Assembly (NCBI GenBank): GCA_021799875.1
Contig: JAJYZP010000004.1
Span: 1-64,000, forward strand
From: Actinomycetes bacterium
GTDB taxonomy: Bacteria > Actinomycetota > Acidimicrobiia > Acidimicrobiales > Acidimicrobiaceae
DNA length: 64,000 nucleotides
Direction of reading: 5' to 3'
Made by a program: the position numbers and the translations under genes. Every line of letters starts with the position of its first letter. The first letter of the stretch is position 1. Below are positions 29,954 through 35,654 of this stretch, piece by piece. The notes beneath the pieces were generated by a model. It searched no databases, was not told the origin of the DNA, and saw only the letters and a program-made list of their open reading frames with translations.

Positions 29954-30985
29954 TTACGACGCCGTAAAGGTAAAGTTATATGGACCGGGCGCTGCAGAGA
30001 ACGCAACGGGTAGTCCATTGACGTTCAGAGAGAGAACGCCGACGTTTCCCGTTCGGAGCCAAAGCGGAGCGGTCGTCGTGATCGTATAGGACTGCCCAGC
30101 AGCAAGCGTACTATCCCATACAATCTTCCCATAGGGAGTTGACGACTCTTCGACCCAACATGGCGCAGAAGCATGCAAGACGACCGTGAGCGCACTGGAG
30201 TTGACTTGGAAGTCCGCCCCGCTGGAAGAGGTCGATACTGCTGAAAGTTGTGTGGCCTGTGTCGTGCTCGTCGTCGAACTCGGCACCGACGTACCCTTCG
30301 ATACCTTCTTGGTAGTGCCGCTCACAGCTGTACCAGCGCGGGACGGCTTTGATTTTGAGAGTGCGACCAGGACCCCGGTGACCGACACGACACCGACAAC
30401 CAAGACCACAAGTAGGCTCGCTATCCGTCCGGTCCCAGAGCTAACGTGACGCCCTTTCGTCCGATGCGGCACCTCCGTCGGCCGAGCAGCAGTGGTTGGG
30501 ACACCGTGGATATCATCGAAAACGACTCGCTGCATCTCCACGGTCGGCTCATCGAGCGCAAAGGCCTTTGTGCTCCGTGGTGAGCTCAAGTGCTCCTTCT
30601 CTCTGCCGGTCCGAGGGCGCTGACGCTGGTCTGCGAGCTTCCTCAAGCTCTGCGAGCCTACTTCCTCAGCGGGTCGAGGTGGTTCCGGAGGATTAAGTCT
30701 CGCTGCGAGCCCTTCGTCGGGACCAACCTTGGCATCACCGAGTCGAGATTGACCGGGGCCGTTCACTCTCCCCATCGTCCGAACGTGAGCGTAGCGCCGA
30801 GGGCCTTGCTCTTCCACGGCACCGGTTCCAGAAGCGGAGGCTCCATGGGCGATATCTTCGATCACGTTCATGACGCGTTGATGAGACTCTATCGACCGCT
30901 TCTCCTTCCGGAAAGCAGACATCGTTGCTCCAGATACCGCTCCAAGAATAAGAATGAGAATTGCGACAATTAAAATAGGTGTCAC
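29954..30985 (-). CDS. Membrane protein with RodZ-C-terminal-like (DUF4115) domain
   Basis: 343 residues, GTG start. An N-terminal TM helix (about 3-25) is followed by a polar cytoplasmic stretch of about 170 residues, a second TM helix (about 192-215), a Ser/Thr linker and a C-terminal beta domain of about 85 residues. That domain matches the RodZ C-terminal pattern: ALTVVLHASAPCWVEE, then GQSYTITTTAPLWLRTGNVG and a terminal LPVAF. Unlike RodZ there is no helix-turn-helix at the N-terminus. It may be an envelope or cell-shape factor; the function is unknown. Confidence 0.7.
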   Translation of the reverse strand: MTPILIVAILILILGAVSGATMSAFRKEKRSIESHQRVMNVIEDIAHGASASGTGAVEEQGPRRYAHVRTMGRVNGPGQSRLGDAKVGPDEGLAARLNPPEPPRPAEEVGSQSLRKLADQRQRPRTGREKEHLSSPRSTKAFALDEPTVEMQRVVFDDIHGVPTTAARPTEVPHRTKGRHVSSGTGRIASLLVVLVVGVVSVTGVLVALSKSKPSRAGTAVSGTTKKVSKGTSVPSSTTSTTQATQLSAVSTSSSGADFQVNSSALTVVLHASAPCWVEESSTPYGKIVWDSTLAAGQSYTITTTAPLWLRTGNVGVLSLNVNGLPVAFSAAPGPYNFTFTAS

Positions 30986-31180
30986 TCGGTCAGTACCTCT
31001 CTGTTGTCCGAGGAGTTTCGACGCCCAGACTCGGATGGGAAATTAGGATATCCCTACACCACCACTGTACTACCCAACAATCTACGCTCACTAACGCCTT
31101 CTCTCGCACGAGTCAAGCAAGGTCTGAGGAAATCCACAGGCACACCTTTAGAATCTCACTTCTCGTGCTTGACACACCAC

Positions 31181-32980
31181 TTATGGACGTCTATCTGCCT
31201 CGTTCGTGCGCTCTCGACCTGCACCAGTCAGGCCAATGGTCACCGACTGACCGACCCCAAGAAGCTCACCGAGCTCTTCCTCGCTCAACTCCTCCTGCTC
31301 GACAAGGCGCAAGACAACACTCCACACCCGCTCCTCATACTGAGACAACAGCTCAGACGCACGAGCCTTCGCCTCGTGCAAAAGTAACTCAACTCGCTCT
31401 CGCTCTCGCGACTCGCCAAGTAAAAAACTCGTCATCTCACTAGGTGATAGGGGATGCGAGCTCAACAGAGTCCCCCTCATGGCGAAGTTCATGACCATAC
31501 CGAGAGCGAGTTCGGTGGCCCGTTCGAGGTCGGACTGAGAGCCGGTCGAGACCTCGCCGAGAAGGAGCTCTTCGGCCACGAGTCCCGCCAGCAGCGACGA
31601 GAGCTGATCCATGAGCTCAGTCTCCGTTTGCAGGTAGTAATCATCTGCCTCGTACGATGCCGTGAGACCGAGAGCGTGACCACGTTTTCGAACCGACACC
31701 AAACCCACACGAACCGGCCTCCTGCTCAGCCATGCGTAGCACCCGTGTCCAGCCTCATGAACCGCTATCCGCAACTTCTGCGCTGAGCTATATGGGGCAC
31801 CCTCGCTGAGGCCAAGCGTCATAGAAGAGACCGCATCGAGAAGATCCTGACCTCGAACGGTTCCCTCTCCTCGTCTCCAAGCCAAGACTCCGGCCTCCTC
31901 AACCAGTCGATTAAGCCCGGCCTGTGACATTCCGCTCGTCATTGAAGCGACAAGCTCGACCGTGTCGCGTAGCTCCATTGCTGACCCAGCCACGGAACGA
32001 CGCTCGAGCAGTCCCTCTAAAATCTGTGACCTTGCAACTCTCGAGGGAAGATCGAAGGTGATTGTTCTATCGAATCTTCCAGGTCGGATCAGCGCTGGAT
32101 CGAGATCAGCGGCACGATTAGTTGCGGCAAGCAAGAGAAATCTCGGTCGAATGGCTGAGACGCGACCATGCTCAGGTAGGTGCAGTAGTCGCCGAAGCGA
32201 GCGTTGAGGTTCGTCAAAGGATTGGAGCTGTACCAAGAGCTCCCCCACGACTCCAGCCACCCCATCTCGCGCCGAGGAGCCGCCGAGCCCGGATCGAGCC
32301 ACACCAATCGCATCAAACTCCTCGATGAATCCAATGGCGCCTCCGTAGCGAGCACTCAAACGCCGCAACTTGCGAAAAAAGGACCGCAACTTCCGATTGG
32401 TCTGCCCGTAGTACATCGACTGAAAGGAGGAAGCGCTGACAAAGAGAAATGGGACACCCGCTTCGCGAGCCAAGACCTTTGCCGCCATGGTCTTACCCGT
32501 TCCTGGTGGTCCCTCAAAGAGAACGGCTCGTGGAGGCCGAGCACCGTAGCGCAGTTCAAGGGTTGCAAAATGGCGATACTCCTCAACGAGTTGGCGTAGC
32601 GATGCACGGTGATGATCCGCACCATAGATATCATCGAGTTTCACGTCAACGTCCTCGGGACGCACCGCCCGGTGGGGAGACCGCCCTAGCCCAACCATTG
32701 GAGCCACCACGACGACTGCAAGCAGCAGCGTCAAGAGCAACGCCGGCGCATAGAGCTGCCACTGGGAGGGCAGGTGAATCCCGAACGAAAGTGACTGGCC
32801 ACCTGTGAATCGCAGGACGTCACGACCGGCCAGGACGGTCAGCACGGCCGCTAATAAGAGGGCCAGCGACCGATATCGCTCTCTCTGCGCTGCGAGCGCA
32901 CAGCGAGCGATATCGTCCATAGAGATCTCTCCCGCGCTACCGTCTACGCCTAGCTCATCCGTTTTCGAAGAAGAGTCCAT
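31181..32980 (-). CDS. Divergent FtsH-like AAA membrane protease
   Basis: 599 residues from the ATG at 32980 (AAGGAG upstream). Two N-terminal TM helices (about 38-90) precede an AAA domain with Walker A GPPGTGKT at about 157 and the sensor/arginine-finger region AATNRAADLDPALIRPGRFDR. The M41 protease domain has H408-E-A-G-H412 and a probable third zinc ligand Asp in SDLERAT. Two departures from FtsH are seen. Walker B reads FIEEFDA (E220-E221) where FIDEIDA is normal, and the pore-loop segment is MYYGQTNRK instead of FVGVGASR. Catalytic zinc residues are kept, so proteolysis looks possible. A normal FtsH may exist elsewhere. Confidence 0.85.
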   Translation of the reverse strand: MDSSSKTDELGVDGSAGEISMDDIARCALAAQRERYRSLALLLAAVLTVLAGRDVLRFTGGQSLSFGIHLPSQWQLYAPALLLTLLLAVVVVAPMVGLGRSPHRAVRPEDVDVKLDDIYGADHHRASLRQLVEEYRHFATLELRYGARPPRAVLFEGPPGTGKTMAAKVLAREAGVPFLFVSASSFQSMYYGQTNRKLRSFFRKLRRLSARYGGAIGFIEEFDAIGVARSGLGGSSARDGVAGVVGELLVQLQSFDEPQRSLRRLLHLPEHGRVSAIRPRFLLLAATNRAADLDPALIRPGRFDRTITFDLPSRVARSQILEGLLERRSVAGSAMELRDTVELVASMTSGMSQAGLNRLVEEAGVLAWRRGEGTVRGQDLLDAVSSMTLGLSEGAPYSSAQKLRIAVHEAGHGCYAWLSRRPVRVGLVSVRKRGHALGLTASYEADDYYLQTETELMDQLSSLLAGLVAEELLLGEVSTGSQSDLERATELALGMVMNFAMRGTLLSSHPLSPSEMTSFLLGESRERERVELLLHEAKARASELLSQYEERVWSVVLRLVEQEELSEEELGELLGVGQSVTIGLTGAGRERTNEADRRP

Positions 32981-33057
32981 TCGATTCCCGCTCCTTGCGC
33001 AACCTCGCACCAGTTACCGCTCACAGCGGTAACTCTAGAGGCCTACTGTACACCAGA

Positions 33058-33609
33058 TTATGTACGCAGAGTGATTTTCGGGCGAAGATGCTCCGGAATT
33101 TCCCCGAGCAGAGGGTTCTTGAGATCACGCTCCGAGATAACTGGGTTCTCGACCCCCCATGAGGCGTGCACCGCTGGGTCGTCGTAGCGAAGGCCAAGCT
33201 CGTCGGAGGGATTGTAGTATCCGTCCACCAGGTAGGTCAACACGAGGTCGGTTATCGTGGCAAATCCATGGGCCACACCGGGTGGGATGAAGAGTCCCAC
33301 CTCGTTTCGCTCACCCATTTCAAGTGAGATCGTCGCTCCCTCAGTGGGAGAGCCCTCTCGAAGATCAAAGAGAACGACCGTCGCTCGCCCAGAAGGGACA
33401 TACCAGTAATCGGCCTGATGAAGGTGGTAGTGAAGACCGACGAGTGAACCAGCGACCTTATCGGACCTCGACCCCTGAACCATCTCCCGACCGAGAGGGA
33501 ACCATGATCGACGGTAGGTTTCACTAAAGCGACCCCGTGCATCGCTAAACGACGACGGCTTCACCACTAGTACATCGGCAATCTCTGGATGGGCAATAAT
33601 CTCTGCCAT
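33058..33609 (-). CDS. RmlC-like cupin (dTDP-4-dehydrorhamnose 3,5-epimerase family)
   Basis: 183 residues from the ATG at 33609, with AAGGAG 8 nt upstream. The RmlC fold is indicated by DARGRFSETYR, GLHYH, VPSGRATVVLFDLREGSP, FIPPGVAHGF and GYYNPSDELGLRYDDP. The catalytic His is present (H60). However, the substrate-binding Arg of the usual VLRGLHYQ is replaced, giving LVGLHYH. It may thus act on a different nucleotide sugar or be a related isomerase. No other dTDP-rhamnose genes are adjacent. Confidence 0.78.
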   Translation of the reverse strand: MAEIIAHPEIADVLVVKPSSFSDARGRFSETYRRSWFPLGREMVQGSRSDKVAGSLVGLHYHLHQADYWYVPSGRATVVLFDLREGSPTEGATISLEMGERNEVGLFIPPGVAHGFATITDLVLTYLVDGYYNPSDELGLRYDDPAVHASWGVENPVISERDLKNPLLGEIPEHLRPKITLRT

Positions 33610-33656
33610 AGCGAGCACTCCTTCATATCAATCTGATCTTCAAGATCGACATTACG

Positions 33657-34496
33657 CTAGGGCAGCAAGATCTCCATGCCGGCCCGCGCCGCCATCAACC
33701 CGACCGACGGACAGAGTCGAGCAAGATTCTCCATCATCACATCGAGCTCTCGATCGGTCCGACTTGGATCGTGATGATATAAGGCGAGCCTCTTCGCCCC
33801 GGTCAATGCTGCGACGTGCAGTGCGTACTCCGCCGTTGCATGCCCCCACGAGCCCTTTGCTACGAGATCCGAAGCCACAAACTGCGCGTCGTGGATCAAC
33901 AGGTCTACACCGTCACAGAGCTGAGCGACGTTCTCGTGGATCGACCGCCCGTCCTTTGGAATTTGATGATCGGTAACGAAAGCTATCGAGCTCCGCTCGG
34001 TATCGAGGCGAAGTCCGACAGTTGGATTGGTATGAGGTATCGAGAGCGCCGTAACGCTACAGAACGGGTCTTCAAAGTGACGTATCGTCCGAGAAGGAGA
34101 GATTGTGAGTTGACCGGGACGCTGATTCGGAGACACCGGAAAGAGCGGTGGTGACAGAGACTTGATCACCACCTCCTCGACGTCACCGTACTCAGCGGGA
34201 ACGACCACTTCTACGTGAGTGCCAGCGACATCGAGGGGAGCGAAGAAGGGAAGTCCTTGCATGTGGTCCCAATGAAGATGAGTCAGAAAGGCCGTCACGG
34301 TCTGAACGCCCTCTGTCACAAGATCTCGACCGAGCGCTATCGCACCGCTACCGAGATCAAAGACGATCGGTGGCCCAAGTTGATCGCCGTGCGCCTCGCG
34401 TATGACGCAGCATGAGGTATCACCACCGAAGCGAAGGAACTGATCTCCAACAACTGGGTACGAACCACGGACACCGTAAAACTTGAGAGAGATCAC
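33657..34496 (-). CDS. MBL-fold metallohydrolase
   Basis: 279 residues. The metal-binding THLHWDH motif is near residue 92, with further conserved His and Asp in PHTNPTVG, FVTDH, DLLIHDAQF, WGHATAEYA and LYHHDPSRTD. The N-terminal KFYGVRGSYPV and GGDTSC pattern matches the phosphodiesterase/RNase Z-like family often annotated as cAMP-degrading or response-linked hydrolases. It is probably a cytosolic phosphodiesterase; the substrate is unknown. It lies between the cupin gene and pilT on the same strand with short gaps. Confidence 0.85.
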   Translation of the reverse strand: MISLKFYGVRGSYPVVGDQFLRFGGDTSCCVIREAHGDQLGPPIVFDLGSGAIALGRDLVTEGVQTVTAFLTHLHWDHMQGLPFFAPLDVAGTHVEVVVPAEYGDVEEVVIKSLSPPLFPVSPNQRPGQLTISPSRTIRHFEDPFCSVTALSIPHTNPTVGLRLDTERSSIAFVTDHQIPKDGRSIHENVAQLCDGVDLLIHDAQFVASDLVAKGSWGHATAEYALHVAALTGAKRLALYHHDPSRTDRELDVMMENLARLCPSVGLMAARAGMEILLP

Positions 34497-34559
34497 CGTC
34501 CAGTCACGCTAACGAACTCGTTCCGACACAAAATCTCAAGTAGTGACCGACGTCACAGC

Positions 34560-35654
34560 TCACTCGGCGTGCGACAGCAGCCCTGCATTCGTCAGCGCTA
34601 GCTTCAAGTCATGGGGATTCGACGCCTGCTCCATCGCTTCCTCAAGGGCTATCTTCCCATCTCGAAAGAGCTCGATCAACGATTGATCAAAGGTACGCAT
34701 GCCATAGAACCCACCCTCCGCCACGATCTGTCCTATCTCGTAGGTCTTGGCCGGATCCAAGATGCACTGCATGACCCGTCCATTGTTGATCATGATCTCG
34801 AGAGCCGGGTAGCGACTCTTGCCATCTGCAGAACGTACAAGCCTCTGACAGATAACTGCACGCAAGGTTCCCGCTAGAGCAACCCGTATCTGCTGTTGGA
34901 GATGAGGGGGAAAGAAGTCCACGATCCGAACGATGGTCTCCGCCGCACCGATCGTGTGCAGGGTGGAGAAGACCAGGTGGCCGGTCTCAGCCGCCTGCAG
35001 TACGGCGGTGACAGTGTCGACATCGCGCATCTCGCCGACGAGGATCACATCGGGATCTTGTCGCATCGCAGCTCGCATGGCGACAGCGAAGCTCTCCGTA
35101 TCCATGCCGATCTCTCGTTGATTGATGATCGACGCCTTATCTCGATGAAGAACCTCGATTGGATCTTCAATCGTCACGATATGGTCGTGCCGGGTCGCAT
35201 TGACGTGATCGACCATCGCCGCAAGTGTTGACGTCTTGCCCGAGCCCGTTGGACCCGTGACCAGTATTAAGCCTCGTCGCTGGTCAGCGATCGAGTTCAA
35301 GGTATCGGGAAGCCCCAGATCGGCCGTGGTAGGTGGATCAATGCTCACCGATCGGAAGACCATCGAGACCGTCCCACGCTGAACAAATGCGTTGACTCTG
35401 AAACGCCCCAAACCGGCCTGTCTGTACGCGAAGTCGGCTTCCTTTTTAACCTTGAAGCGTTCCCATGCCGCGTCTCCCATCGCTACTCGTGCTATCTGGG
35501 CCGTCGAATCTGGCGAGAGCGGATCGGTTGGGAGCGGCAGGAGTGCTCCATTTACTCTCGTCCATGGCTGCGAGAATGGTTTGATATGCAGGTCCGAACC
35601 GCCCGCTTTGAGGAGTTCACCTAAGTAGTAGTTCAACCGTTCAACGTACTCCAC
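34560..35654 (-). CDS. pilT: PilT, type IV pilus retraction ATPase
   Basis: 364 residues. It has the N-terminal GSDLHIKP PAS-like domain, Walker A GPTGSGKT, Asp box TIEDPIEVLH, Walker B PDVILVGEMRD and His box TGHLVFSTLHT. The C-terminal RTFDQSLIELFRDGKI helix is in the family place. It powers pilus retraction and twitching in known systems. No pilin, PilB or PilC genes are in the window, so the partners must lie elsewhere. Confidence 0.93.
   Translation of the reverse strand: MEYVERLNYYLGELLKAGGSDLHIKPFSQPWTRVNGALLPLPTDPLSPDSTAQIARVAMGDAAWERFKVKKEADFAYRQAGLGRFRVNAFVQRGTVSMVFRSVSIDPPTTADLGLPDTLNSIADQRRGLILVTGPTGSGKTSTLAAMVDHVNATRHDHIVTIEDPIEVLHRDKASIINQREIGMDTESFAVAMRAAMRQDPDVILVGEMRDVDTVTAVLQAAETGHLVFSTLHTIGAAETIVRIVDFFPPHLQQQIRVALAGTLRAVICQRLVRSADGKSRYPALEIMINNGRVMQCILDPAKTYEIGQIVAEGGFYGMRTFDQSLIELFRDGKIALEEAMEQASNPHDLKLALTNAGLLSHAE

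Follow-up and report, generated by a model that had tools for sequence, protein, structure and literature searches.

The 64,000-nucleotide stretch of actinobacterial DNA analysed here (the window) carries an intact extra copy of the gene for the membrane protease FtsH. Judged by comparison with its relatives' sequences, the glutamate that replaces the first aspartate of its Walker B motif is a subfamily character, the normal state of a whole actinobacterial branch of FtsH-like proteins and not a defect or oddity of this one gene. This branch has been little described so far. Probably, the gene encodes an active, membrane-anchored and ATP-driven zinc protease of the M41 family, which belongs to an actinobacterial subfamily paralogous to FtsH and for which a glutamate in Walker B is normal. 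The positions of the gene, of its motifs and of the two adjoining genes are compiled in Table 1.

Table 1. Position of the FtsH-like gene, its sequence features and its direct neighbours in the window.
Feature	Coordinates	Strand	Remarks
FtsH-like AAA+/M41 membrane protease gene	31181..32980	-	599 aa, ATG start at 32980, stop 31181-31183
Transmembrane segment 1, residues 38-56	32813..32869	-	hydropathy; one long helix 23-60 in AlphaFold model
Transmembrane segment 2, residues 80-98	32687..32743	-	about 23 residues after segment 1, no FtsH_ext between
Walker A GPPGTGKT, residues 157-164	32489..32512	-	canonical
Pore loop 1 MYYGQTNRK, residues 189-197	32390..32416	-	aromatic family-wide
Walker B FIEEFDA, residues 218-224, Glu220 replacing Asp	32309..32329	-	codons GAG GAG
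Insert in the alpha3-beta4 loop, about residues 256-279	32144..32215	-	about 20 residues longer than canonical FtsH
Sensor 1 / second region of homology ATNR...RPGRFDR, residues 286-305, both arginine fingers	32066..32125	-	
Zinc-binding HEAGH, residues 408-412	31745..31759	-	
TGSQSD, third zinc ligand Asp484	31529..31546	-	
dTDP-4-dehydrorhamnose 3,5-epimerase-like, upstream neighbour	33061..33618	-	conserved beside FtsH-like gene in close relatives only
RodZ_C-domain membrane protein, downstream neighbour	29957..30985	-	directly downstream in 13/81 loci

The ATG at 32980 is preceded by AAGGAG at 32991-32996, and the starts of relatives agree with it. An alternative GTG at 33010, 10 codons upstream, would use the entire open frame of 609 codons and yield a protein of 609 residues. 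The encoded protein matches the Pfam models AAA (PF00004; 100.9 bits, cut-off 21.2) and Peptidase_M41 (PF01434; 98.2 bits, gathering score 29.9), the latter being matched by 49 of 49 relatives as well. Its AAA score, the Walker A motif and a second region of homology with arginine fingers assign it to the classic clade of AAA+ proteins, and the zinc ligands of M41 peptidases, HExxH and a distal aspartate, are present as HEAGH and Asp484. The protein has canonical versions of Walker A, of the zinc site and of the arginines of the second region of homology, whose motif RPGRFDR is conserved; in Walker B, the first acidic residue alone differs and the catalytic second glutamate (E221) is the canonical one. 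These findings confirm what the initial annotation had read, namely FIEEFDA in place of the usual FIDEIDA, MYYGQTNRK in place of the pore segment FVGVGASR, and a HEAGH motif and third ligand that are both intact. FtsH proper is defined by a Walker B of the form hhhhDE, the pore loop MFVGVGASR and an FtsH_ext domain between the two transmembrane segments, none of which was found here. With 273.9 bits, the protein scores below the curated cut-off of 600 for the NCBIfam FtsH equivalog TIGR01241 and should therefore not be classified as FtsH proper.

Relatives were sought in 60 related genomes, in contigs of named genomes and in 396 genomes of the phylum. Full-length relatives occur in the Acidimicrobiia, where they were found in Ferrithrix, Acidithrix, IMCC26256, Ilumatobacter and many MAGs, and in other classes of the Actinomycetota. 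The first position of Walker B is glutamate in 112, aspartate in 20 and valine in one of 133 relatives, a set that includes the window's own copy and some loci represented twice from two collections. The valine (GFIVEIDA, L092:9893-11758) is found in a protein in which all else looks intact, and may reflect either a genuine loss or an error of the MAG. Pore loop 1 begins with an aromatic residue in all 133 relatives and almost always continues with x-Gly (YYG, WYG, FYG and near variants). The loop, described as altered in the initial annotation, does differ from MFVGVGASR, yet it retains this family-wide, working aromatic-x-Gly pattern. Among the relatives whose sequences cover the zinc site, all 132 have HExGH and all 130 the zinc-binding aspartate. 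That every residue used for threading and cutting is retained over the subfamily argues for a working ATP-driven zinc protease. Canonical FtsHs of the same phylum served as a control: the Walker B aspartate is present in 32 of 32, and MFVGVG in nearly all. Whether the unusual residues might be common in active FtsH, a possibility raised earlier, can thus be answered in two parts, since they are absent from Walker B of the canonical proteins but common within the paralogue's own subfamily. An exact DNA-pattern count of AIGFIEEIDA gave at least 39 of 198 genomes of the class, a lower bound which misses FIEEFDA and other variants.

The subfamily is distinguished from canonical FtsH by additional traits. 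FtsH_ext is absent from 49 of 49 relatives and present in the canonical FtsH of the host genome, and the two hydrophobic segments are separated by 23 residues in the window protein as compared to about 75 in canonical FtsH. From LQSF to ATN, i.e. from alpha3 to beta4, the subfamily has 36-79 residues (typically 48, and 37 in the window protein) and canonical FtsH has 17; the insert between Walker B and sensor 1 amounts to 19-62 residues. Positions in and around alpha3, namely E247, Q251, Q253 and S254, are fixed differently from canonical FtsH. An AlphaFold model was built from 49 sequences and describes the monomer without nucleotide, the Mg2+ site lying outside its scope. It reached a mean pLDDT of 84.8 and a pTM of 0.79, with the insert modelled at lower confidence. 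The domain order of the model is that of FtsH, and its best matches in the PDB are FtsH, AFG3L2 and YME1.

These features suggest that the protein most likely works in the manner of FtsH. Its subunits would assemble into a hexamer, anchored by two short-linked transmembrane helices without an extracellular FtsH domain. ATP hydrolysis would drive the pore-loop tyrosines (MYYG) to thread membrane proteins or unfolded proteins through the ring; these would then reach the M41 chamber and be cut by the zinc site formed by HEAGH and the aspartate. The glutamate, acting as the Walker B carboxylate, would orient the Mg2+ site next to the retained catalytic glutamate, and is presumed to be compatible with ATPase activity. 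Because FtsH_ext is missing, the protein should select other substrates or bind other partners than the canonical FtsH of the same cell, and we infer a set of substrates distinct from that of canonical FtsH.

P-loop ATPases are regarded as having the Walker B aspartate almost without exception. Rare cases of a glutamate serving in its place were described in a survey of P-loop NTPases (PMC9599734), and our literature search for a Walker B Asp-to-Glu change in FtsH or AAA+ proteins found no direct test. Substitution of the equivalent aspartate of PspF (D107A) almost abolished ATPase activity, with 0.23 as compared to 39.5 per min (PMC3419264), and thus indicates that the position matters, though the residue was replaced by alanine and not by glutamate. 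The initial annotation had offered a slow or regulated ATPase as one of two readings, and one may ask whether the glutamate is there to make the ATPase slow or switch-like, and the protein a regulated holdase or gate more than a processive protease. The severe effect of alanine in PspF, the near-invariance of the aspartate seen in all 32 canonical FtsHs of the phylum and the retention of glutamate over most of the subfamily would agree with such a role. We nevertheless consider it unlikely, as close relatives have exchanged aspartate and glutamate for one another while all their other motifs stay the same, and as the catalytic glutamate, Walker A, the arginine fingers, the pore aromatic and the zinc site are all kept, although a switch protein could do without them. 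The interchange argues against a crippled motor, and on the basis of these comparisons near-normal activity of the Glu-type protein appears likelier than reduced activity.

A tree of 104 rows was calculated by a quick search with the Walker B residue masked and with SH-aLRT support only. On this tree, the canonical FtsHs fall outside the window-type subfamily. Glutamate is spread over the subfamily and aspartate is confined to two subclades of a 13-row clade, which also contains the window protein; the protein's own five-row clade has glutamate and adjoins the aspartate subclades. At least three changes are needed at this position within the subfamily, one of them to valine, and the distribution implies that the window protein either retains the older glutamate or regained it. 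Tentatively, we propose that this widespread actinobacterial subfamily may have fixed glutamate as the carboxylate of the Walker B Mg2+ site, with natural reversions to aspartate in sister genera. If true, this would be a natural experiment in which the supposedly invariant aspartate of AAA+ proteases proves replaceable in working motors, perhaps with a tuning of ATP turnover. The Glu-conserved subfamily and its Asp-bearing sisters offer ready-made pairs for testing the role of the Walker B residue in an AAA+ protease; the orthologue of Ferrithrix thermotolerans, for example, has glutamate and that of Acidithrix ferrooxidans aspartate. The members from two records titled Bifidobacterium breve and Acidobacteriota (L064 and L084) are placed well inside the Acidimicrobiia part of the tree, and these records are for this reason probably misnamed or misbinned contigs.

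The host genome contains three M41 genes. One of them, on contig C59, is the second, canonical ftsH for which the initial annotation had advised a search; its product has FIDEIDS, MFVGVGAS and an FtsH_ext domain and is about 36% identical to the window protein. The earlier suggestion of a specialised paralogue is supported by this separate copy and by the place of the window protein in a subfamily that branches deeply, is clearly set off and is conserved in much of the Actinomycetota. That the window protein is the organism's own FtsH altered by lineage-specific drift is very improbable: domain order and fold are the same as in FtsH, but its score lies far under the equivalog cut-off and it groups with the subfamily apart from the canonical FtsHs, so that the canonical copy and the tree rule this explanation out. 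Still less probable is a decaying gene copy or a sequence error at 32318-32329, to which the unusual motif itself and one in-frame TGA in the match of a relative (L016, G002:C29) might point and which is ruled out by independent relatives, as the open frame is intact with all catalytic residues and glutamate stands at the same place in most of the subfamily, including four relatives of about 50% identity (L005-L008) with FIEEFDA or a similar Walker B and a MYYGQ pore loop. The TGA of L016 may only reflect an alignment that extends upstream of the true start.

Among known systems, bacterial FtsH (TIGR01241; E. coli, T. maritima and A. aeolicus; PDB codes 7vhp, 3kds and 4ww0) shares with the window protein two N-terminal transmembrane segments, the AAA module, the M41 zinc protease with HExxH and distal aspartate, the arginine fingers and the predicted fold. 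It differs by Asp-Glu instead of Glu-Glu in Walker B, by FVG instead of YYG in pore loop 1, by its FtsH_ext domain and by the lack of the subfamily's insert. The mitochondrial i-AAA and m-AAA proteases YME1 and AFG3L2 have an aromatic pore loop and a reduced or different extra-membrane domain, as does the window subfamily, and a canonical Walker B aspartate. Both are among the top fold matches (6nyy, 6az0). What sets the window subfamily apart from them is its additional insert and the short distance between its two transmembrane segments. Chloroplast FtsHi subunits have lost the protease site, whereas this site is intact in the window protein and the change lies in Walker B. Like the latter, FtsHi is a divergent FtsH paralogue beside a canonical one, and it was also found among the fold matches (Ycf2-FtsHi complex, PDB codes 8xku and 8xqw).

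The FtsH-like gene is part of a same-strand run (29957-35654, minus strand) encoding a PilT-like ATPase, a beta-lactamase-fold protein, an rmlC-like epimerase, the FtsH-like protein and a RodZ_C protein. These five genes occur together in close relatives only (13-17 of 81 loci). At other loci, a flavin reductase gene is located upstream and a prolyl oligopeptidase gene downstream on the other strand. As the neighbours differ outside the close relatives, no partner was assigned to the FtsH-like gene, and the neighbourhood was rejected as a clue to its function.

The third M41 paralogue of the host genome (L003:58-2310, G000:C8) comprises 751 residues from the first start listed, has HEACH at the zinc site, keeps the Walker B aspartate and has, behind this motif, a long insert that comprises about 100 residues; it sits on a very long branch and its placement in the tree is unsure. 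Matches with open frames of about 800-820 residues recur in many genomes of the family. None of 30 genomes from this family lacked an M41 gene, in most cases canonical FtsH, and the canonical, window-type (about 600 residues) and long-type (about 800 residues) forms were separately distributed. Several genera of the family are without a window-type gene, which is therefore not essential to the group. The available part of a survey of proteostasis in acidophiles reports ftsH redundancy in the Actinomycetota, and the Glu-type subfamily was not found in that part (PMC10490939). Many actinobacteria thus possess two or three distinct M41 proteases, just one of which is recognised as true FtsH by the NCBI equivalog model. 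In one related genome (G044, L018), the window protein was matched ten times at E<=1e-40, so that FtsH-like genes are unusually expanded there.
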